A stretch of DNA of 20,108 nt from a virus. Position 1 is the first letter of the stretch. Each line of letters opens with the position of its first letter. A program made the position numbers and the translations under genes. Positions 4,727 to 20,108 of this stretch are shown piece by piece. The notes under the pieces are model-generated. The model ran no database searches. It was not told the origin of the DNA and saw nothing but the letters and a program-made list of their open reading frames with translations. Where the stretch lies: positions 1 through 20,108 of IMG/VR virus record IMGVR_UViG_3300031251_000959. One strand, written 5' to 3'.

Positions 4727-5250
4727 TGGCTAACAAAATATCTATTAACAGGCTGACCAATGCCAATATATACGCGGACGGTAATTCCTTTTTGGGACGC
4801 GCTGAAGAAATAAATCTGCCACAGGTAAAATTTAAGAACGGGGAACATAAGGCCCTCGGTATGATCGGCGCTATTGAGTACTTCTCCGGCATTGATAAGC
4901 TGGAAGGAAAAATAAAGTGGAACTGCTATTACCCGGAGGTCATGAAAAAAACGGCCAACCCGTTTGAGGCAATGCAGTTAATGATACGCGCCTCATTGGA
5001 AACCTACGAAGGCGGCAGCCGTGTATCACAGGTTCCGGTGGTGTGCTATATCACCGCGCAGTCAAAAGATTTCCCGCTTGGCAACTTCAAGCAGCACGAC
5101 AACGTGGAACTGGAAAACAACTTCGGCGCTACCTATTGCAAACTGGAGGTTGACGGCGAAGAAATAATCGAAATAGACGTGGAAGCAAACATATTCAAGG
5201 TCGGCGGTGAAGATCTGCTGGCGGAGTACCGCGCTAACCTCGGCATATAA
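4726..5250 (+). CDS. Tail tube protein (P2 FII type)
   Basis: A 174-residue protein directly coupled to the sheath gene, as in P2 (FI-FII) and Mu (L-M). It starts with INRLTNANIYADGNSFLGRAEEINLPQVKF, the usual start of P2-like tube subunits, and ends in paired strands (CKLEVDGEEIIEIDVEANIFKVGGEDLL). Such subunits stack as hexameric rings to make the inner tube through which DNA passes. It is followed after seven bases by the tRNA gene at 5258, which would be cotranscribed. Length and position are normal for the family. Confidence 0.9.
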   Translation: MANKISINRLTNANIYADGNSFLGRAEEINLPQVKFKNGEHKALGMIGAIEYFSGIDKLEGKIKWNCYYPEVMKKTANPFEAMQLMIRASLETYEGGSRVSQVPVVCYITAQSKDFPLGNFKQHDNVELENNFGATYCKLEVDGEEIIEIDVEANIFKVGGEDLLAEYRANLGI

Positions 5251-5257
5251 GAAACGC

Positions 5258-5329
5258 AGCGCGGTAGAGCAGCGGTAGCTCGGCGGGCTCATTACCCGCA
5301 GGTCATGGGTTCGAGTCCCATCCGCGCAA
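5258..5329 (+). tRNA. Initiator-like tRNA-Met (CAT)
   Basis: A full cloverleaf can be drawn. The acceptor arm AGCGCGG (5258-5264) pairs with CCGCGCA (5322-5328) except at the first pair, which is A·A. The D arm is GAGC/GCTC with a seven-base loop. The anticodon stem is GCGGG (5283-5287) with CCCGC (5295-5299), loop CTCATTA, anticodon CAT at 5290-5292. The variable loop is AGGTC and the T arm ATGGG/CCCAT with loop TTCGAGT. The discriminator is A; CCA is not encoded. Three initiator hallmarks are present: a mismatch at position 1:72, three G:C pairs next to the anticodon loop, and A11:U24 in the D stem. U at position 37 is unusual. It lies inside the tail operon and must be cut from the late transcript. 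Confidence 0.9.
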
Positions 5330-5347
5330 CAAAATTTTTAAATCAGT

Positions 5348-5683
5348 ATGGAACAGCAAACCAAAGAGCAGGAACTGAAATTTTACTTTGCCGACAAGGA
5401 CGACGAGGTAATGGGTATTGAAACGCATGTGTACCCCAACGGCAACATGATTAAGCGCCTAAAACTTTCCACCGGCAAAACCGCCGTTGTGCGCGAATTA
5501 AAAGGCATGGATATGACGGACGTGGAAAAGCTGACCGACGGCGACACCTCAAAAGTATTTCCCGCTATCATTGCCGTGGCTACCAAGATAGACGGCGCGG
5601 GTATCGTTATGGAGGACGTACTCCAGTACAAGGCCAAAGATTACAACCGCCTGAAAATTGCAGCGTCCGCGCTAAATTTTTAG
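5348..5683 (+). CDS. Tail assembly chaperone (P2 E / Mu gp41 type)
   Basis: A 111-residue protein between tube and tape measure, the standard place of the tail assembly chaperone that coats the tape measure while the tube polymerises. It has N-terminal strands with VMGIETHVYPNGNMIKRL and an alternating VVRELKGMDMTDVEKLT segment, close in style to Mu gp41 and P2 E proteins. The zero-frame product ends ALNF at a TAG that directly follows the slippery sequence A AAT TTT. A fraction of ribosomes should therefore enter the -1 frame and make a longer form with the extension at 5683-5823, as known for P2 E+E' and lambda G-GT. Confidence 0.85.
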   Translation: MEQQTKEQELKFYFADKDDEVMGIETHVYPNGNMIKRLKLSTGKTAVVRELKGMDMTDVEKLTDGDTSKVFPAIIAVATKIDGAGIVMEDVLQYKAKDYNRLKIAASALNF

Positions 5684-5713
5684 TGAGTGCTGAAAACGTT
5701 ATGTTTTTAGCAC
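5674..5713 (+). promoter_or_regulatory. -1 ribosomal frameshift signal (tail chaperone)
   Basis: The heptamer A AAT TTT at 5674-5680 is in the correct zero-frame phase (AAT TTT, then TAG). After a 6-base spacer comes a strong stem-loop: GTGCTGAAAAC (5687-5697) pairs with GTTTTTAGCAC (5703-5713) over 11 pairs, one a G·U, with a five-base loop. Heptamer, spacer and hairpin together are the textbook form of a programmed -1 site. Slipping leads into the open frame ending at 5823. Confidence 0.82.
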
Positions 5714-5823
5714 ATTTCTCTCATACGCCGCTGGATGCGATTATGCAGTGGCCTTCAAAGGAAATTCAATACTGGTACGTGGAAGCGGACAAGCTGTTCA
5801 AAAAAATGTACCCGGACAAATAG
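5683..5823 (+). CDS. GpE'-like extension of tail chaperone (-1 frame)
   Basis: This 46-codon reading frame lies in the -1 frame relative to the chaperone gene and is reached by slipping at 5674-5680. The segment LAHFSHTPLDAIMQWPSKEI followed by QYWYVEADKLFKKM has the short helix-W-P-helix pattern of the P2 GpE' family, whose members bind the tape measure. It could start alone at GTG 5683, but that start has no Shine-Dalgarno and sits at the hairpin base. A fused E-E' product (5348-5823) is therefore the more likely form. It ends 21 bases before the tape measure gene. Confidence 0.75.
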   Translation: MSAENVMFLAHFSHTPLDAIMQWPSKEIQYWYVEADKLFKKMYPDK

Positions 5824-5830
5824 GTTTACA

Positions 5831-5835
5831 GGAGG
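5831..5835 (+). promoter_or_regulatory. Shine-Dalgarno deciding the GTG start of the tape measure
   Basis: GGAGG stands nine bases before GTG at 5845. No ATG lies in frame until Met19 (YDRMSS), which is inside a conserved-looking N-terminal helix. The GTG is therefore the best start for the tape measure gene. Confidence 0.7.
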
Positions 5836-5844
5836 TAAGGATTA

Positions 5845-7683
5845 GTGGACAGGGAAACCAAGATTGCGGTCATACTTACAGCGTATGACCGCATGTCGTC
5901 TGTAATAAACAGGTCGGTCAACAGCGCGTCGGCAAAAATGAAGTCGCTGAAAAAGGTAAGCGAAGGGCTTAACAGTTTCGGGGACAAGGCCCTGATCGGC
6001 GGCGGACTGGCGACGGCGTATTTTGGTACGACGCTGGAGGCGGCAGAAGAAAACGAGGTTGCGGTAAACAGGCTGCGGCAGGTCTTTAAAAGTATGGGCG
6101 CTGCCAATGACCAAGCCGCTGCACAGGCGGAGGCCTACGCCGGTAAGCTGGAGTTTCAGATAGGCGTGGAAGATGAGGCTATCATGGCGGTACAGGCCAA
6201 GATCGCCACCTTTAAATCACTGAGCAGCGAAACCGGGCGCATGGCCGGTATGTTTGACCGTGCGACAAAGGCTTCCTTTGATATGGCGGCCACCGGGTTT
6301 GGCGAGGCAGACCAGAACGCGGTGCAATTGGGTAAGGCATTGGAAGACCCGATAAAGGGTATCAGCGCCCTGCGCCGTTCCGGTATCACTTTTACCGAGT
6401 CGGAAAAGGCAAAGATTAAAGCCCTTACCGAAAGCGGGCAAAAGCTGAAGGCGCAGGAAATGATTATGAAGGCCGTTGAAAAGCAGGTCGGCGGCGTTGC
6501 GGAAAAAACGGTAACGAGTACGCGCATGGCTAAGGTGGCGTGGAGCGAGGTAACGGAGAATATCGGTAAAATCCTGATGCCTACCGTTGCGCAGTTAGGT
6601 AACAAATTCGTTAATGATGTTGTGCCGAAAGTCCAGGCATTTATCGAGAAGCACCCGCAGCTGATTAAATACGCGGCGGCGGCCAGCGTGGGCCTGCTGG
6701 CATTGGGCGGCGCGGCTAAGGTGCTGGCCTTCGGTATCAATGGCGTTATTTCCATAGTAAACGGCGCAAGCACGGCAATAAAGTTCATGGGCAATACCTT
6801 TTCCTTTGTCGGCAAATTGTTTGCCGCAAACCCGGTACTGCTCATTATTGCGGCGGTCGCGGTGGCGGCGCTGCTGATATACAAGTATTGGGATCAGATA
6901 AAGGCGTTCTTTGTTGGGCTATGGGCCAGCGTAACGGCGGCGTTCTCCAAAGCGTGGGAATGGATAAAGCGCATGTTCCTGAACTACACACCGCAGGGCC
7001 TTGTTATAAAGCATTGGGATAAGATACGCGCGTGGTTCAGTAGTTTATGGGATAAGGTTAAAGCCATATTCCGGGCTACGTGGGAAGCGATAAAATCGCT
7101 GTTCCTGAATTATACACCGCAGGGCCTTATCATAAAGTATTGGGATAAGATTGTGGCGTGGTTCGGTGAATTATGGAACCGGGTAAAAAGTATTTTTACC
7201 GGCTTTGTGTCCTGGCTGTTCGGGTTGGGTAATACCTTCCTGAATGCCGGTAAAAATATTGTCGACAGTATATGGAAGGGCATAAAAAGCGTAGCGCATA
7301 AACCTATTGAGGCTATTAAAGGCATGGTGAGCAAGATACGGGATTACCTGCCCTTCTCCCCGGCTAAGACCGGCGCTTTAAAGGACATACACCGTATTAA
7401 ACTGGTGGAGACCATTGCACAGAATATTAAAGCCACGCCGCTCATTCAGGCAATCAGTAGTGTTGCCGATCAGGTATTCCATTTCAAAGGGCAGCAATTC
7501 ACGCCCGCGCCGGTTATGGCAGGTAGTAACGGCGGTACGGTAACTATTCACTTTGCGCCTGTAATTCAATTAAGCGGTAGCGCCACACCGAAGGACGCAA
7601 ATATGCTGACCGCTGAAATGCGCAGGCAGTTTGACAAAATGATGAAGGATTACGAGGCCCGAATGAAGCGCGTAAAATTTTAG
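5845..7683 (+). CDS. Tail tape measure protein
   Basis: This 612-residue protein sets tail length and probably helps DNA cross the inner membrane. The N-terminal half is helical, with charged coiled-coil stretches and the AYDRMSSVINRSVNSASAKM start usual for Mu/P2-like tape measures. Two strongly hydrophobic segments follow: about residues 275-320, including LIKYAAAASVGLLALGGAAK, and about 330-350 (NPVLLIIAAVAVAALLIYKYW). A Trp-rich region with a 42-residue repeat covers about residues 344-460. The C-terminal part contains KIRDYLPFSPAKTGALKDIH, a motif typical of the tape measure end that contacts the baseplate. At roughly 0.15 nm per residue, the length predicts a tail near 90 nm. It is short compared with P2 gpT. 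Confidence 0.9.
   Translation: MDRETKIAVILTAYDRMSSVINRSVNSASAKMKSLKKVSEGLNSFGDKALIGGGLATAYFGTTLEAAEENEVAVNRLRQVFKSMGAANDQAAAQAEAYAGKLEFQIGVEDEAIMAVQAKIATFKSLSSETGRMAGMFDRATKASFDMAATGFGEADQNAVQLGKALEDPIKGISALRRSGITFTESEKAKIKALTESGQKLKAQEMIMKAVEKQVGGVAEKTVTSTRMAKVAWSEVTENIGKILMPTVAQLGNKFVNDVVPKVQAFIEKHPQLIKYAAAASVGLLALGGAAKVLAFGINGVISIVNGASTAIKFMGNTFSFVGKLFAANPVLLIIAAVAVAALLIYKYWDQIKAFFVGLWASVTAAFSKAWEWIKRMFLNYTPQGLVIKHWDKIRAWFSSLWDKVKAIFRATWEAIKSLFLNYTPQGLIIKYWDKIVAWFGELWNRVKSIFTGFVSWLFGLGNTFLNAGKNIVDSIWKGIKSVAHKPIEAIKGMVSKIRDYLPFSPAKTGALKDIHRIKLVETIAQNIKATPLIQAISSVADQVFHFKGQQFTPAPVMAGSNGGTVTIHFAPVIQLSGSATPKDANMLTAEMRRQFDKMMKDYEARMKRVKF
6874..7224 (+). repeat. Trp-rich 42-residue repeat inside the tape measure gene
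   Basis: Three units follow each other. The pattern is I-K-x-W-D-x-I-x-A-W-F-x-x-L-W-x-x-V, a spacer helix, and then FLNYTPQG ending units one and two. The FLNYTPQG-coding DNA recurs at 6976 and 7102, exactly 126 bases apart (42 codons). Codon differences between the copies show that the repeat is old and selected at protein level. Each unit looks like an amphipathic helix pair. Confidence 0.8.
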
Positions 7684-7703
7684 TACAAAACACGTACTAA
7701 TAC
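7681..7703 (+). repeat. 23-bp intergenic element, copy 1
   Basis: The sequence is TAGTACAAAAC, then ACGT, then ACTAATAC. It begins with the stop codon of the tape measure gene. The second copy at 17052-17074 also begins with a stop codon and differs only in the four central bases. Within copy 1, TAGTAC and GTACTA form a six-base inverted repeat around AAAACAC, followed by a T-rich run. A regulator-binding, processing or promoter site is possible; none can be proven from sequence alone. Confidence 0.55.
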
Positions 7704-7716
7704 TTTTTTGAAATAT

Positions 7717-7752
7717 CCCCCAATTTGGCAACCATGTATTGCCAGTTGGGGG
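7717..7752 (+). promoter_or_regulatory. Hairpin with the start codon of the U-like gene in its loop
   Basis: CCCCCAATTTGGCA (7717-7730) pairs with TGCCAGTTGGGGG (7740-7752). Seven outer and five inner pairs form, interrupted by a small internal loop. The nine-base loop ACCATGTAT carries the ATG at 7734. The structure buries the bases around the start and there is no Shine-Dalgarno. This suggests translational control of the downstream baseplate gene. Confidence 0.65.
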
Positions 7753-8594
7753 ACATTCTTTTTGAGGGATTGAAAGGCATTGAAGCGTGGAGCGTGGACG
7801 GTAACGAGGCATCCTATGGCGAACATGCGTTAATTGACGGCAAGCCGCGTTTGCAGAAAACCGGCGACACCTTGCAGGAGCTTACGCTCAACTTCCGGCT
7901 TCATGCCAAATTCTGCAACCCCGCGCAGGAACTTTCCAAACTGGATAAATCAAAGACCGACGGCGAAATACTGCCGCTGCTTATGGGCGACGGTACATAC
8001 GTTTCGGATTACGTGATTATCTCCGCGCCTTATACGGTTGACCATGCCCTTGCCGACGGTACAATCGTACAGGCCACCGTTACGCTGGCCCTTAAAGAGT
8101 TTGTACCCTATTCCAAAGAAGAACAGCAGCAGCAGCAGGCGCGTAAAAATTCCTTTGCCACCGGGGATAAAAAGCCGGTCATTACCAAGCCGCCGCAAGC
8201 GCCCACTGCGGCAGCGGCGGCGGCAAAGAACGTGACCGAAACCGCGCAGCAGGCAAACGAAGTGGACGGGCTGGTAAGCGATTATGAAAACAACGTATCC
8301 GCCCGGCATTCCATAGAGCAAGCCATTAAAAGCGCCTGCGACAAAGCTAACGACGCAATAGACGCACTCGACGACAAGCTGGATAATATAGAAGAATTAC
8401 AGGGCGTATATACCGCGCTGCAAGCGGCGGCGGGCGCTGTATCCGGCAGGTTCAGTTCCATAAAGGCGCTGTTCCCGCTTACCGGCATTTCGGATTTGCA
8501 GGACGCTAATACCTACCTGCAGGCCGACATGCGCAGTATGAACCGCGCCTCTATTCCTTTACTCAATAACGTTATAACGCGCCGCGGTTTATAG
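7734..8594 (+). CDS. P2 gpU-like tail protein with helical C-terminal extension
   Basis: The first 130 residues (MYCQLGDILFEGLKGIEAWS, ALIDGKPRLQKTGDTLQELT, YTVDHALADGTIVQATVTLA) match the P2 GpU pattern, a baseplate-tail tube component. The family is normally about 130-160 residues. Here about 155 more follow: a Gln run coded by five CAG at 8124-8138, a Pro/Ala linker, and an alpha-helical region with probable coiled coil (about residues 175-235) ending in NNVITRRGL. ATG 7734 is preferred. An upstream in-frame TTG at 7725 would add three residues (MAT), and both starts are held in the hairpin at 7717-7752. The gene is followed directly by X- and D-like genes, a usual cluster. Confidence 0.82.
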   Translation: MYCQLGDILFEGLKGIEAWSVDGNEASYGEHALIDGKPRLQKTGDTLQELTLNFRLHAKFCNPAQELSKLDKSKTDGEILPLLMGDGTYVSDYVIISAPYTVDHALADGTIVQATVTLALKEFVPYSKEEQQQQQARKNSFATGDKKPVITKPPQAPTAAAAAAKNVTETAQQANEVDGLVSDYENNVSARHSIEQAIKSACDKANDAIDALDDKLDNIEELQGVYTALQAAAGAVSGRFSSIKALFPLTGISDLQDANTYLQADMRSMNRASIPLLNNVITRRGL

Positions 8595-17221: not shown

Positions 17222-17703
17222 TGAGAGGATTTTTGATGAAGGCGATTGCAGGAAAAATTATAGCACATACCAGCCCCATACTTTTAGTAGCCAGCGGCAT
17301 CGGGGCGTTAATCCAAAAATATATTTTCAGTGATACCGAGTATTTGACGTGGCTTTTAATTGCCGTCATGCTCGACCTGATTACCGGCATTACCAAAGTG
17401 TGGGTAAACCGTGGCCCAAGCCATGTTACCAGCCAGGGCTTGCGCATGACGGTTATTAAATTTATCCAGTACGGAGCCTTCCTCATCATTACGCACACCC
17501 TCGCAAATTTTACGGTGAACGGTGAGCGCGTTTCCCCCCTTGCCTTTGTAGAAAATTGGGGATACTCCCTTTTGATACTTATTGAGGCAAAGAGCGTGTA
17601 TGAAAATATTGTCGCTATCAACCCAAAGCTGGACTTTATAAAGCCGCTTATCGACAAGATCAGTAAAACAATAAAAGACCCGGAAAATGAGGAAGAGCAT
17701 TAG
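17221..17703 (+). CDS. Phage holin
   Basis: A holin of about 160 residues, of the Phage_holin_4 type often found in Bacteroidota phages. Hydrophobic segments lie near residues 16-35 (SPILLVASGIGALIQ), 43-62 (LTWLLIAVMLDLITGITKVW, with the conserved D-x-x-T-G) and 80-96 (VIKFIQYGAFLIITHTL). The C-terminus is charged and cytoplasmic (KTIKDPENEEEH). It forms lesions in the inner membrane that release or activate the endolysin. Start choice is open between ATG 17221, coupled by TGATG to the small ORF, and ATG 17236, which has GAGAGGA upstream. It overlaps the spanin gene by 17 bases. Confidence 0.82.
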   Translation: MRGFLMKAIAGKIIAHTSPILLVASGIGALIQKYIFSDTEYLTWLLIAVMLDLITGITKVWVNRGPSHVTSQGLRMTVIKFIQYGAFLIITHTLANFTVNGERVSPLAFVENWGYSLLILIEAKSVYENIVAINPKLDFIKPLIDKISKTIKDPENEEEH

Positions 17704-18172
17704 TGTTTACCTGTGCGCCCTTTTGGTGCTTTCAGGCTGTTATACCCAACGCAAAGCGGAAAGGCAGGTATTGAAAGCGCAGGCGCATTACCCGCAGGTG
17801 GTCGCCACCGATTGCGGCAACTGGTATCCGCCGAAGGAAAGCACCGTTACCAAAACGGAGTACAAGCCCGGCGCAACCGTGTACCATACGGATACGGTAA
17901 AAGTGGACTGCGACAGCGTAGTAAAAAACGGCAAGGGCAACAGCATTGTTTATTTGCCTTGTCCGCCGCAAGGTGTGCGCGTGGATACCTTCTATACTAC
18001 CAGCTTTAAGACAGTCGAAAATACCGCCAGAATAACGGCAATACAGCAATCCTATGACAAGGAGCATGACCGGGCGGAGCAGCTACTCTTTGAACGTAAC
18101 CTGTGGCGCGTCATTGCGCTTGTATGTTTAGGGGTAATAGTGGTATATGTAGTTATCAAGTTTGTTTTATAG
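17687..18172 (+). CDS. Probable unimolecular spanin (lipoprotein with C-terminal TM)
   Basis: A 161-residue protein with a type II signal peptide (MRKSISVYLCALLVLSGC; lipobox LSGC, Cys18), a soluble periplasmic middle and one C-terminal membrane helix (RVIALVCLGVIVVYVVIKFV). A lipid anchor at one end and a transmembrane helix at the other is the design of u-spanins such as T1 gp11, which fuse inner and outer membranes in the last lysis step. It overlaps the holin gene by 17 bases, as Rz-type genes often overlap lysis genes. The middle holds ten or so charged residues and four Cys, two of which (in YLPCPPQG and TDCGNW) could form a disulfide. Alternative: a plain lipoprotein of unknown role. 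Confidence 0.72.
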   Translation: MRKSISVYLCALLVLSGCYTQRKAERQVLKAQAHYPQVVATDCGNWYPPKESTVTKTEYKPGATVYHTDTVKVDCDSVVKNGKGNSIVYLPCPPQGVRVDTFYTTSFKTVENTARITAIQQSYDKEHDRAEQLLFERNLWRVIALVCLGVIVVYVVIKFVL

Positions 18173-18176
18173 GCTT

Positions 18177-18335
18177 ATGGAAAAAGAGCAGGAGAAAAAG
18201 GAACCGCCCAAAGGTTTTAGCTACCGGGAACAACACGCGGTCATTGTCAAGGTAGCAACGGAAAAGGAGCAGAAAGAGGTATTTGAAAAATTGAAGGAAT
18301 TAGGATTTACGGATTTAAAGGTTGTATCGGTATGA
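18177..18335 (+). CDS. Small 52-residue protein leading the accessory operon
   Basis: MEKEQEKKEPPKG, then a strand (HAVIVKVATE), a helix (KEQKEVFEKLKELG) and a final strand (DLKVVSV): one beta-alpha-beta unit. No Cys, so it does not resemble the zinc-finger protein Com of phage Mu. It starts four bases after the spanin stop and its TGA overlaps the ATPase start (ATGA), so it is probably translated together with the ATPase. Small proteins of this shape are found in many phages, but I do not know a function. Confidence 0.65.
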   Translation: MEKEQEKKEPPKGFSYREQHAVIVKVATEKEQKEVFEKLKELGFTDLKVVSV

Positions 18336-19021
18336 GGATAGAGGTAAACCATAGTTGCGAAAATTATAAATCGTTCAGGGCGGAAAAAGTAAAGTCCCTG
18401 TTCAACCCGGAAAGCGGGCATACATGGAGCCATATTGCGGATATTCCCGCCGAGGGCGCAGGCTGGCAGATAGGGCTGATCGTCGGCCCTTCCGGTAGTG
18501 GTAAATCCAGCCTCGGCAAACAGGTATGGGGCGCAGACCGCATTCATGACCTGTACAGCGGTTGGGACAATGATAAACCCATTGTCGATTGCATTGCACC
18601 GGAAGGAGATTTTAAAGCGGTAACGGGTGCGCTGGCCTCCGTTGGTTTGGGTGACGTTCCGGCGTGGCTCAGGCCGTTTAAAGTGTTGTCTAACGGCGAG
18701 CAATTCCGCGCGGGGCTGGCAAGGCTTACCGTGGACGCTCCGGACAAAGTAGTGGTGGACGAGTTCACCTCCGTTATTGACCGGCAGATTGCACAGGTAG
18801 GCGCTGCGGCATTTGCTAAGGCATGGCGCAGGAACACGGGTAAACAAATCATATTGCTGTCCTGCCATTACGATATTATCGAATGGCTGCAGCCCGATTG
18901 GGTTTATGATACACGCACGGCGGAAGTAAAAAAAAACTCCAGTCAAGGCCAGCTATTTCCCTTGACATCTGGAAGGTCAACGGCAGTTACTGGAAGTTTT
19001 TTAAAGCGCATTATTATTTAG
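18332..19021 (+). CDS. Soluble ABC-type ATPase (zero-frame part of an ATPase-GNAT fusion)
   Basis: All ABC ATPase motifs are present in order: Walker A GPSGSGKS (residues 52-59), a signature-like LSNGEQ (119-124), Walker B VVVDEF (140-145), a D-loop SVID (147-150) and an H-loop His179 in LLSCHYD. No membrane segment is seen, so it is not a transporter half; it is likely a soluble ATP-driven partner. The ATPase fold ends near residue 197, just before Lys200-Lys201 coded by the A run. The last 28 residues of the unshifted product have low complexity and look non-functional. The main product may be the fusion that continues in the -1 frame to 19455 (about 374 residues). Confidence 0.85.
   Translation: MRIEVNHSCENYKSFRAEKVKSLFNPESGHTWSHIADIPAEGAGWQIGLIVGPSGSGKSSLGKQVWGADRIHDLYSGWDNDKPIVDCIAPEGDFKAVTGALASVGLGDVPAWLRPFKVLSNGEQFRAGLARLTVDAPDKVVVDEFTSVIDRQIAQVGAAAFAKAWRRNTGKQIILLSCHYDIIEWLQPDWVYDTRTAEVKKNSSQGQLFPLTSGRSTAVTGSFLKRIII
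18931..18972 (+). promoter_or_regulatory. Putative -1 frameshift signal between ATPase and GNAT
   Basis: A run of nine A (18928-18936) followed by C contains the heptamer A AAA AAC (18931-18937), in phase with the ATPase frame. Five bases later TCAAGG (18943-18948) pairs with CCTTGA (18960-18965), and the outer CCAG/CTGG (18939-18942 / 18969-18972) can extend the stem across a three-base bulge. A programmed -1 shift would join the ATPase to the GNAT frame. A homopolymer length error of one A would give the same picture. Confidence 0.6.
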
Positions 19022-19455
19022 ACCTGCCGCACCCGCCGTGCGCGGAATACTTTGTCGCCACGGTAAACGGTGAGCTGGTCGCCCACGTTGCGGTTACGCC
19101 CTTCTTTACGGCTAAAGCATACCGCGCCACGCGCTTAGTGGTAATGCCGGAGTGGCAGGGTACGGGCGTAGGTACGCAGTTCTTAAAATTCGTTTGCCAG
19201 TATCATTTGGAGGGCAACGGCAGGAAGGGTAACAAATACCCTGTTTTCTTTCATACTTCCCACCCGCAGCTGTGCGCGTACTTACGGAAAGCCAAAGGCT
19301 GGATACAGACCGGGGCCATGATGTACGGCGCGAACAAAACGCGGAGTATGCAGAGCATAAAGAAAACGTGCAAATCAAAAAGTTTCAAAAAGACATCGGC
19401 GGGTTACGGCGGACATTTCCGCGCGGTGCAGGCATTCAAATACATAGGTGAGTGA
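18937..19455 (+). CDS. GNAT acyltransferase domain in the -1 frame
   Basis: The -1 frame is open from the A run to TGA at 19453-19455 and codes about 172 residues of a complete GNAT fold: WKFFKAHYYLDL, the strands EYFVATVNGELVAHVAVTP, the acyl-CoA motif RLVVMPEWQGTGVGTQFL with Q-G-T-G-V-G, and a C-terminal HTSHPQLCAYLRKAKGW. The region before the A run has a TGA in this frame at 18907 and there is no ATG or good GTG until 19138-19144, which would delete half the fold. Hence it is most likely made as the second half of the ATPase protein. Mom of phage Mu, a DNA-modifying enzyme, is also GNAT-like; that link is inference. The stop overlaps the following GTG start. Confidence 0.75.
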   Translation, partial: LQSRPAISLDIWKVNGSYWKFFKAHYYLDLPHPPCAEYFVATVNGELVAHVAVTPFFTAKAYRATRLVVMPEWQGTGVGTQFLKFVCQYHLEGNGRKGNKYPVFFHTSHPQLCAYLRKAKGWIQTGAMMYGANKTRSMQSIKKTCKSKSFKKTSAGYGGHFRAVQAFKYIGE

Positions 19456-20108
19456 GTAGAGGATTGAAGGTCTTTATATCAGGACAAAAGAAGTTTGGGG
19501 AGGAAGTATTGCGGCTGTGCCTGCAAAAAGGTTGCGAAGTAAAGGGCGTATGTTGCCCGCCGGAGGATAAGTACATAGGTACATTAGCCCGCCTGCATGA
19601 AATACCGATTACGCCCGCCGGTACGCTGAACGCGGACACAATGACCGGCGGCGTGGATTTGGGCATTACCGCACATTCATTTGACTACATAGGGAAAAGG
19701 ACGCGCTATATACCACGCCTCGGCTGGATAGGCTACCACCCGTCCTTACTGCCGCGCCACCGCGGGCGCTCCGCTATTGAGTGGGCTATCCGCATGAACG
19801 ACCCCGTTACCGGCGGGACGGTATTCTGGCTCAATGCCGGTATAGATCGCGGCGACATTGCGTACCAGGACTGGTGCTTTATTGACCCTATGCTGCGCAT
19901 TAAAGAGCCAAAGAAAGCCGCCGCGGTACTATGGCGCGAAACGCTGCTGCCTATGGGTATAAAGCTGATCGGTAAAGCCATAGACGATATAGCCGCCGGG
20001 GTCATTATCAAAATTCCGCAGGAGGACAGGTATTCCACATTTGAGCCGGGGACGGACGTAAAAGACGTGTACAGGCCCGACCTGCTCATGCTACCTGCCG
20101 CGCGGTAA
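19452..20108 (+). CDS. Formyltransferase-fold protein, 10-formyl-THF hydrolase-like
   Basis: A complete 218-residue protein with GTG start overlapping the GNAT stop by four bases (GTGA). It has the Rossmann-type start KVFISGQKKFGEEVLRLCLQ, the motif YHPSLLPRHRGRSAIEWAI (His96) and AGIDRGDI (Asp132). These match the catalytic His and Asp of formyl_trans_N enzymes. The catalytic Asn two residues before the His is Gly94, as also absent in the hydrolase domain of 10-formyl-THF dehydrogenase, whose YHPSLLP-RG motif it resembles. The tRNA-binding C-terminal domain of methionyl-tRNA formyltransferase is missing. Substrate unknown. Because of its operon partners, a role in modifying a nucleotide or acyl group is possible. 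Confidence 0.8.
   Translation: MSRGLKVFISGQKKFGEEVLRLCLQKGCEVKGVCCPPEDKYIGTLARLHEIPITPAGTLNADTMTGGVDLGITAHSFDYIGKRTRYIPRLGWIGYHPSLLPRHRGRSAIEWAIRMNDPVTGGTVFWLNAGIDRGDIAYQDWCFIDPMLRIKEPKKAAAVLWRETLLPMGIKLIGKAIDDIAAGVIIKIPQEDRYSTFEPGTDVKDVYRPDLLMLPAAR

Follow-up and report, generated by a model that had tools for sequence, protein, structure and literature searches.

The closest described relatives of the locus reported here are the ABC-GNAT proteins, in which a soluble ABC ATPase is coupled to a GNAT domain. For this family, acylation of a DNA base by the GNAT domain is an existing prediction (PMC7824862, citing Iyer 2013), and in that account the product of the family is called uncharacterized. 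The portion of PMC7824862 that deals with ABC-GNAT proteins makes no mention of a formyltransferase, a decarboxylase, a CoA-transferase, a ParB tail, or a frameshift. A second related system is the com-mom operon of phage Mu, which uses Com-activated translation and whose Mom protein belongs to the GNAT superfamily (PMC7824862). Two further systems bear on the one-carbon enzyme of the locus. FDH (ALDH1L1) hands a formyl group to the thiol of 4'-phosphopantetheine (PMC8748788), and for the homologous N-terminal formyl-THF domain of HypX the synthesis of formyl-CoA is a proposal only (PMC6802093). In Jace-type modules (Gordonia/Rhodococcus phage Jace and relatives), genes for a ParB-like protein and an ABC-GNAT protein are followed by a donor-slot gene.

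Organization of the Locus

The window analyzed here is a stretch of viral DNA of 20,108 nucleotides (IMG/VR record IMGVR_UViG_3300031251_000959). The contig comes from a Mu-like Bacteroidota phage and ends in a late operon of four parts, at positions 18177-20108 of the window. The features are as follows.

18177..18335, + strand: small ORF, 52 aa; ParB-like C-terminal tail, with the ParB domain itself missing
18332..19021, + strand: ABC ATPase without a membrane domain, 229 aa, frame 0; PF00005, phrog_11143
18928..18934, + strand: slippery heptamer A_AAA_AAA, within the 9-A run 18928-18936
18934..19455, + strand: GNAT acyltransferase domain, open -1 frame relative to the ABC frame; PF13508/PF00583
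19452..20108, + strand: formyltransferase-fold protein (FMT), FDH-hydrolase-like, predicted formyl-CoA maker, 218 aa; PF00551, phrog_9240

An earlier note on this DNA had described four linked coding parts that should be made together. All four are present, joined by an ATGA overlap between the small ORF and the ABC ORF (18332-18335), the -1 frame, and a GTGA overlap between the GNAT frame and the last ORF (19452-19455); these overlapping and -1-frame ORFs bear out a single translationally linked operon. Pfam matches were obtained for the ABC ATPase (PF00005, E 2.8e-6), the GNAT domain (PF13508, E 4.3e-8; PF00583, E 2.5e-7), and the last ORF (PF00551, E 1e-17). The Pfam search of the 52-aa small protein gave no match.

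The small protein does match phrog_28816 (E 6e-7), and in single-sequence searches it matches upstream proteins of 173-205 aa in relatives. An HMM of six full-length ParB-like proteins gave a score of 37.7 bits against it at model positions 140-186 of 187. By these comparisons the protein is assigned as the C-terminal tail that remains of a ParB-like protein, the full-length form of which lies upstream in many relatives, and weak ParB_N matches occur among the upstream neighbors of relatives. The small protein contains zero Cys residues and therefore no Com-type zinc finger.

The operon follows the tail genes at the right end, as com-mom does in Mu, and the com-mom-like place proposed in the earlier note is thus confirmed. 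The accompanying parallel with Mom as a GNAT-type enzyme stands for position and superfamily but not for sequence. Mu Mom was not matched by the family profile in hmmsearch, and hhalign returned a probability of 0.2 over 8 columns; membership in the Mom family was rejected for lack of a sequence or profile match. The small protein is likewise not Com-like. Where Mu has Com and Com-activated translation, the window operon has an ABC motor, an FMT partner, a ParB-tail protein, and a frameshift. An anti-restriction role, as in Mu, is probable.

Proposed Mechanism

The operon is interpreted, with a probability of roughly 0.4, as a late module for base acylation in a Mu-like phage. Its FDH-like FMT would take the formyl group from 10-formyl-THF and load it onto the thiol of CoA, or of a carrier resembling CoA, to make formyl-CoA. 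A dimer of the ABC ATPase, bound to DNA, would bring the attached GNAT domain into position there, and this domain would pass the acyl group to an exocyclic base amine (N6 of A or N4 of C) to give N-formylated, or otherwise acylated, bases. The conserved -1 frameshift would fix how much free ABC is made relative to ABC-GNAT, and the small protein may be what is left of a ParB-like partner, a tail that contacts ABC. Like Mom-modified Mu DNA, DNA with this mark would resist host restriction. The comparative data establish the operon, the slip site, the ParB-like source of the tail, the likeness to FDH, and the association of FMT with one ABC-GNAT clade; the remaining steps, from the DNA target to the resistance, are inferred. 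The new kind of base modification put forward in the earlier note is retained insofar as a DNA-base modification is likely; its novelty is reduced by the acylation already predicted for ABC-GNAT proteins (PMC7824862). What is added here is the partner slot after ABC-GNAT, the ABC-GNAT half being known as a prediction from the same source. The literature searched, the scope of which stopped short of Iyer 2013 and Krishnan 2020, yielded no ABC-GNAT joined to a formyltransferase, an aspartate decarboxylase, or a frameshift.

The ABC ATPase and GNAT Domain

The ABC ATPase matches positions 1-198 of the 357-position phrog_11143 profile (E 1e-82), and the GNAT domain matches positions 213-351 (E 8e-47). 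Because both match one PHROG, the fused protein is taken as the normal form of the family. The -1 frame restores ABC and GNAT in one product of ~374 aa, and ABC residues ~1-201 are common to the frame-0 ABC and the fused product. The first ATG, GTG, or TTG codon of the GNAT frame appears at 19138, inside the domain.

The earlier identification of a soluble ABC ATPase and a GNAT domain agrees with the alignment of 46 fused relatives, in which the ATPase motifs and the GNAT CoA loop are intact. The Walker A, signature, Walker B DE, and H-switch motifs are invariant, the QGxGxG CoA loop is kept with G279 and G281 invariant, and the other invariant columns include G52, G57, K58, S120, G122, D143, E144, and H179. 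The ABC motifs and the CoA loop are also readable in the window sequence itself.

The example named in PMC7824862, from Tenacibaculum phage pT24, was matched by the window ABC query with 45.8% identity over 115 residues. The pT24 protein carries the accession QAX98348.1 in PMC7824862 and BAV39160.1 in the database record. A structure model of the ABC-GNAT protein of locus L035 has a pLDDT of 89.0. The listing from a PDB structure search with this model, in which the GNAT half was predicted together with the ABC half, contains ABC domains only. In a viral structure library the L035 model aligns along its length with the ABC-GNAT protein of Leptospira phage LE4 (TMq 0.83, 26% identity), and the ABC-GNAT of Leptospira phage LE3, used as a query, returned one locus. 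Partial matches to PADLOC mad3, mad8, SspF, and AbiLi are confined to the ABC part and were taken as generic ABC similarity.

The Formyltransferase-like Enzyme

The last ORF matches phrog_9240 (E 6e-46) and carries the marks of the PF00551 superfamily, namely, the HxSLLPxxxG motif and the catalytic His and Asp. The window protein keeps H96, S98, and D132, with Gly94 at the catalytic Asn position. Two alignments of phage FMTs, of 52 and 49 rows, show no variation at H96, S98, L100, P101, G105, and D132, and the catalytic His and Asp are present in 52 of the 52 aligned proteins. The Asn position, two residues before the catalytic His, is occupied in these 52 proteins by Gly (48), Ile (2), or Val (2), and in none by Asn. 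The Asn mark of the amine N-formyltransferases (FMT, GART, and ArnA) is absent from the window protein and from all 52 aligned rows. This position holds Ile in FDH and Asn in the amine formylators (PMC4388273).

The nearest PDB relative by sequence is the FDH hydrolase domain (1s3i, E 6e-21); the best methionyl-tRNA formyltransferase appears at E 3.2e-9. The best NCBIfam model is methionyl-tRNA formyltransferase (E 2.1e-13), with a match that falls far short of the cut-off of that model. The structure model of the window protein (pLDDT 91.9) aligns with FDH 4qpd with a Z of 27.7 over 191 residues (rmsd 1.4, 31% identity) and with methionyl-tRNA formyltransferase with a Z of 27.2, a tie in which the fold does not separate the two. 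The Z for HypX is 21.4, with 16-17% identity.

The likeness to the FDH hydrolase domain thus comprises the fold, the HPSLLPRHRG motif, and a His/Ser/Asp triad without Asn. The phage enzyme differs in that it stands alone, without the C-terminal subdomain, the carrier, or the dehydrogenase domain of FDH, and has Gly rather than Ile. From its sequence it looks like a member of the thiol-formylating class and not an amine formylator; since the window has Gly and not Ile, the thiol acceptor is deduced from the loss of Asn and the overall similarity. HypX shares the formyl-THF domain, for which CoA formylation was proposed (PMC6802093), but its crotonase-like CO-releasing domain is absent from the window operon. 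The formyl or THF step suggested in the earlier note is therefore upheld as a PF00551 enzyme linked to ABC-GNAT, with thiol formylation favored because the amine-formylating Asn is absent.

These features bear directly on an alternative two-step hypermodification, in which GNAT adds an amino-acyl group (e.g., glycyl) to the base and FMT formylates the new amine, either directly in DNA or while the precursor is still free. Mom is thought to add a glycyl group, PF00551 takes in well-known amine formylators, one of which ties with FDH by fold, and a formylated amine is part of phage deazaguanine DNA modification. The Asn missing from every aligned module FMT and the nearest PDB relative both argue against such a pathway, which is judged unlikely while still deserving consideration.

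Gene Order and the Partner Slot

The module of small/ParB-like protein, ABC, GNAT, and FMT is conserved among relatives. With the ABC query, an FMT-like ORF was found in 64/80 viral loci and in 42/52 loci of the genome collection. Eleven of the 16 viral loci without it end inside the GNAT ORF or within 190 bases of it, and 5 have room but none; in the genome collection, 9 have room but none and 1 has no GNAT match. With the FMT query, GNAT and ABC lie immediately upstream in 50 of 55 loci (redundancy removed by shared 12-mers), 2 loci are cut off inside GNAT, and the 3 loci lacking GNAT or ABC (L145, L146, and L147) are all partial formyltransferase matches. The possibility raised at the outset, that homologues would consistently be found apart, was checked and is contradicted by the FMT-query loci, and all three counts tie the one-carbon enzyme to ABC-GNAT.

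For the tree, redundancy was cut with 3-mers, from 190 to 116 rows; the search was a quick one, and support is weak at many forks. A branch with an SH-aLRT of 100 has all 67 FMT-linked rows on the same side. This FMT clade of 78 rows also takes in 8 cut-off rows and 3 FMT-less rows, and 10 of the 11 PanD/CoA-transferase rows are located in one group of 12.

The neighboring genes point to DNA as the target: proteins with weak ParB_N matches lie upstream, a terminase is found nearby in relatives, and ASCH-domain proteins lie beside the module in 3/3 Streptococcus phages tested. The neighbor tested in Lactococcus phage P335 gave no ASCH match. TmcA is a tRNA acetyltransferase that combines an ATPase with a GNAT domain. 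An ATPase-GNAT pairing that acts on RNA therefore exists, and GNATs also act on proteins and small molecules, so the module might instead act on a host protein or tRNA during host takeover, as an analogue of TmcA with the ABC ATPase as a switch. This target is considered unlikely in view of the neighbors listed above, the late right-end place, and the DNA-base prediction published for the family (PMC7824862), with all of which a tRNA target would still be compatible. It is improbable that FMT simply hydrolyzes 10-formyl-THF, to the effect of altering the folate pools of the host, and lies beside ABC-GNAT by chance; the N-terminal domain of FDH alone does hydrolyze 10-formyl-THF in vitro at high thiol concentrations (PMC8748788), but FMT co-occurs with one ABC-GNAT clade and the reading frames overlap.

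In the sister clade, which contains the Jace-type modules, the slot after ABC-GNAT is filled not by FMT but by an aspartate decarboxylase (PanD) and/or a class III CoA-transferase-like protein. Slot proteins chosen by eye matched PF02261 in 5/5 and PF02515 in 6/6 of those tested. The occurrence of such CoA-linked enzymes in this slot favors the proposed mechanism. The CoA-transferase-like protein has ~220-240 aa against a Pfam profile of 366 positions, and 2 of the 6 matches are below the Pfam cut-off; NCBIfam gave weak or no matches for it, and one such protein searched against the PDB gave no match. The slot totals for 201 loci are 139 with FMT, 12 with PanD/CoA-transferase, 37 with room and neither, and 13 cut off. 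The loci were drawn with the window ABC, window FMT, Sisko, Jace, and LE3 protein queries, so these totals are not natural frequencies, and the profiles behind the PanD and CoA-transferase counts were built from loci within the same set.

It is tentatively suggested, as a doubtful extension of the base-acylation mechanism, that ABC-GNAT systems are a modular platform in which the slot supplies the acyl-CoA. This would be formyl-CoA here and, in the Jace clade, beta-alanyl-CoA made by the aspartate decarboxylase and the class III CoA-transferase-like enzyme. Alternatively, the PanD cassette could support the supply of pantothenate and CoA and have no part in a beta-alanyl donor. Formyl and beta-alanyl groups are thereby named as candidate chemistry for a family whose product is called uncharacterized in PMC7824862. 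If correct, both N-formylated and beta-alanylated bases would count as new DNA modifications, by which viruses could disguise their DNA in a new way, formyl-CoA would be a new GNAT donor with a role beyond the single reported use that the HypX paper mentions (PMC6802093), and one-carbon and CoA metabolism would be tied directly to DNA modification. Cultured phages carry the module too, among them Pseudomonas phage Komp_PAO1_1 of strain PAO1, the Gordonia phages Sisko and Mariokart, and others.

The ABC/GNAT Junction

Of 69 non-redundant -1-frame loci, 65 carry the heptamer A_AAA_AAN at the junction, versus 1 of 118 in-frame fused loci. At other places in the ABC ORFs of these 69 loci, the in-frame A_AAA_AA count is 25 in 13,365 codons. 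For these counts 20 of 280 loci without an ABC or GNAT match were set aside, and redundancy was removed by shared 12-mers. The -1-frame loci without A_AAA_AAN are L055, L086, L168, and L227. Judged from these sequences, the -1 relation between ABC and GNAT is more than chance, and because the junction heptamer is conserved, a -1 frameshift should yield both ABC and ABC-GNAT.

A downstream stimulatory RNA structure is common, though not universal, at A_AAA_AAN -1 frameshift genes. No such structure was found 3' of the slip (mean z of -0.43 over 65 loci), and RNAalifold, a test that covers structures other than pseudoknots, found no conserved structure in the alignment 3' of the slippery site. 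Transcriptional slippage on the A-run instead of a ribosomal shift is possible; 53 of the 65 loci have 9-11 A, which would suit the polymerase, but 12 have merely 6-7 A. A sequencing or assembly error at the homopolymer, or a decaying gene, is a very improbable source of the split and was rejected because the split recurs across loci. In favor of error or decay stand the 9-A homopolymer of the window, the otherwise split-type L035, whose sequence at the A-run gives a fusion, L243, which is read in a different frame, and L037, with its broken ABC. Against them, frame and site are identical in 65/69 loci from unrelated metagenomes and isolate genomes, and the A-runs of 6, 7, 9, 10, or 11 in every case give the -1 phase.

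The frame-0 stop lies 27-32 codons past the slip in 64 of the 65 loci, the exception being L037, on account of its broken ABC. This constant position was dropped as evidence for a functional short ABC because the codons of a conserved HYYL-type GNAT motif in the other frame force the stop. A separate origin of the slippery site in locus L225 was likewise dropped, since L225 lies beside other split loci on the tree.

Position and Family of the Module

The window is a 20.1-kb stretch from a Mu-like Bacteroidota phage. Encoded in order are a capsid/protease protein; the tail sheath, tape measure, baseplate and fibres; a holin; a weakly Rz-like lipoprotein; and the four-part operon, which forms the end of the contig.

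17687-18172, lipoprotein-like ORF after the holin, probably a diverged spanin (Rz-like spanin matches weak, best E 0.014)
18177-20108, + strand, operon of a small 52-aa protein, an ABC ATPase, a GNAT acyltransferase and a formyltransferase-fold protein (FMT, PF00551)

The operon organization described in the earlier note was borne out by the ORFs, their overlaps, and the Pfam and PHROG profile matches in the window. The mom-like location proposed there agrees with Porphyromonas phage phage008a, where 168 bases of the 34,571-base record follow the module, the same right-end position as com-mom of Mu. In Komp_PAO1_1, which carries transposase and Gam genes, the module again lies 3' of a tail-fibre assembly gene. 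Within the genome collection, the ABC gene has its nearest relatives in two Flavipsychrobacter MAGs (93% identity), and the genomes of Bizionia, Chryseobacterium, Flavobacterium, Capnocytophaga and Bacteroides isolates contain others.

Judged by its sequence, the module belongs to the ABC-GNAT family, and base acylation was predicted for this family by Iyer and colleagues (cited in a passage of PMC7824862). On sequence grounds it falls outside the Mom family, no match having been obtained in sequence profile comparisons with Mom. The passages available from the literature searched (Iyer 2013 outside it) contain no mention of donor-slot enzymes, a frameshift or a ParB tail for ABC-GNAT.

Probable Frameshift at the ABC/GNAT Junction

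The two halves of a single PHROG (phrog_11143) correspond to ABC and GNAT, respectively. In the window, GNAT is read in the -1 frame, whose earliest ATG, GTG or TTG is at 19138, within the domain. The junction was surveyed in 280 loci, of which 260 contained both domains and 188 were retained once near copies were removed. GNAT was in frame with ABC in 118 of these, in the -1 frame in 69, and in another frame in 1. At the junction, the slippery heptamer A_AAA_AAN is in frame with ABC in 65 of the 69 -1-frame loci versus 1 of the 118 in-frame loci. Between the preceding stop in the GNAT frame and codon 15 of the domain, 42 of the 65 heptamer loci have no ATG, GTG or TTG in that frame, so that a shift is the only evident route there to a full GNAT; the remaining 23 do have such a codon. 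That a -1 shift lets one message give both ABC and ABC-GNAT is strongly supported by this comparison and very probable. The A-runs at the 65 junctions are 6 (1 locus), 7 (11), 9 (24), 10 (28) and 11 (1) bases long, all of which would fit ribosomal slippage at A_AAA_AAN; polymerase slippage could contribute additionally at the long runs.

GNAT also occupies the -1 frame without A_AAA_AAN in five Streptococcus phages, one Lactococcus phage and one Oenococcus phage (L086, L285, L286, L287, L288, L290 and L087), and the ABC/GNAT split therefore extends beyond loci with the slippery site. The first six of these loci share a CCC CAC codon pair close to where the overlap starts. Among these phages, the GNAT of Javan420 has a further stop. 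In Pseudoalteromonas phage SL25, ABC and GNAT are fused in frame. Near the split clade, L035:8001-9131 is one fused ORF because its sequence differs at the A-run of the junction. An in-frame TGA (L283:3535-3537) lies inside the GNAT domain of Tenacibaculum phage pT24, and this interrupted gene is annotated as two ABC proteins. Viral contig L149 apparently carries two nearby ABC-GNAT genes (5067-6095 and 7224-8255).

Gene Following GNAT

The clue is the gene 3' of GNAT, the donor slot. Among loci collected with ABC-GNAT of Gordonia phage Sisko, the slot mostly holds FMT. In several loci from the phage Jace query it holds aspartate decarboxylase (PanD) and/or a 220-240 aa class III CoA-transferase-like protein. 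Jace-query proteins chosen by eye matched PF02261 (aspartate decarboxylase) in 5 of 5 cases (E 4e-28 to 2e-33) and PF02515 (class III CoA-transferase) in 6 of 6, two of them below the Pfam cut-off; one CoA-transferase-like protein searched against the PDB gave no match at E 0.1. A PanD and/or CoA-transferase-like gene is present in 12 of 201 non-redundant loci. A further 37 lack both cassettes despite sufficient space, so not every locus carries a donor gene.

The ABC-GNAT tree (116 rows) has a branch with SH-aLRT 100 that sets apart all 67 FMT rows; 8 cut-off rows and 3 FMT-less rows (L076, L243 and L267) lie on the same side of it. Of the 11 PanD/CoA-transferase rows, 10 fall in one group of 12. 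Slot type and GNAT clade thus go together, which would be expected if GNAT were fitted to a particular acyl-CoA; vertical descent alone would give such clustering too. In L243 (Riemerella columbipharyngis, FMT clade), the GNAT frame is neither 0 nor -1 and no FMT follows directly.

The best solved relatives of the window FMT are hydrolase domains of 10-formyl-THF dehydrogenase (FDH; 1s3i, E 6e-21), followed in the PDB by methionyl-tRNA formyltransferases (best E 3.2e-9). Against FDH-likeness, the top NCBIfam model is methionyl-tRNA formyltransferase (E 2.1e-13, 50 bits versus a cut-off of 201.5). The predicted structure (pLDDT 91.9) matches FDH 4qpd (Z 27.7, rmsd 1.4, 191 residues, 31% identity) and methionyl-tRNA formyltransferase 3q0i (Z 27.2, 25% identity), which are tied by Z, and HypX 6j1g (Z 21.4). 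Alignments of 52 and 49 rows show no variation at His96, Ser98 or Asp132. Two positions before the His, the 52 rows contain Gly (48), Ile (2) or Val (2) and never Asn; in passages of PMC4388273 the equivalent residue is Ile104 in FDH and a catalytic Asn in methionyl-tRNA formyltransferase, ArnA and GART. The formyl acceptor of FDH is a phosphopantetheine thiol (passage in PMC8748788), and formyl-CoA synthesis was proposed for the homologous domain of HypX (passage in PMC6802093).

Small Protein

In other phages, the protein 5' of ABC-GNAT is mostly 170-240 aa long and often has a weak ParB_N match. In a first set of upstream proteins, 5 of 6 matched at E <1 (Sisko 0.16; L067 none), and in a second set 5 of 6 matched with E up to 0.0046 (L097 none); over both sets, 3 of 12 reached the Pfam cut-off. 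A profile of six full-length ParB-like proteins (L053 and L067, first noticed through a small-protein match, and Sisko, Jace, LE3 and Javan141, which were not) matches the window 52-aa protein with a score of 37.7 bits, the match covering the final 47 positions of the model. Among the 201 loci, 79 have the tail only with FMT and 52 a full ParB-like protein with FMT. The small protein is read as a putative ABC-binding tail left behind when the ParB domain was lost. Neither the window nor either of two Mu-like phage records yielded a second ParB-like match.

The 'acr candidate' at L085:4876-5004 of a Porphyromonas phage is the module's ParB-tail protein, which makes the anti-CRISPR label look doubtful. 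At L145:4003-4868 and L146:1179-2044, a partial FMT-like gene comes immediately after a ParB-like gene, the intervening ABC-GNAT being absent; this arrangement is possibly a deletion derivative of the module.

Proposed Mechanism

A single message would yield ABC and ABC-GNAT via the -1 shift, the ATPase would act on nucleic acid, FMT would produce formyl-CoA, GNAT would formylate a base amine, and restriction evasion would be the purpose. Action on nucleic acid is suggested by the lack of a membrane domain, by ParB-like, terminase and ASCH neighbours, and by the published prediction. Formyl-CoA is suggested by FDH-likeness and the lost Asn, and restriction evasion by the mom-like place and the family. 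The target is probably DNA. The whole five-step chain, drawn from comparison and inference, is tentative (probability about 0.42). Mom is likewise late, right-end and dependent on acyl transfer, the manner in which the module is proposed to work.

ASCH domains are predicted readers of modified bases. The neighbour in the Lactococcus phage tested gave no ASCH match; the three Streptococcus phages tested have ASCH neighbours.

ASCH-domain proteins (PF04266) adjoining ABC/GNAT genes in three Streptococcus phages
L288:2575-2940
L286:2589-2963
L086:5087-5461
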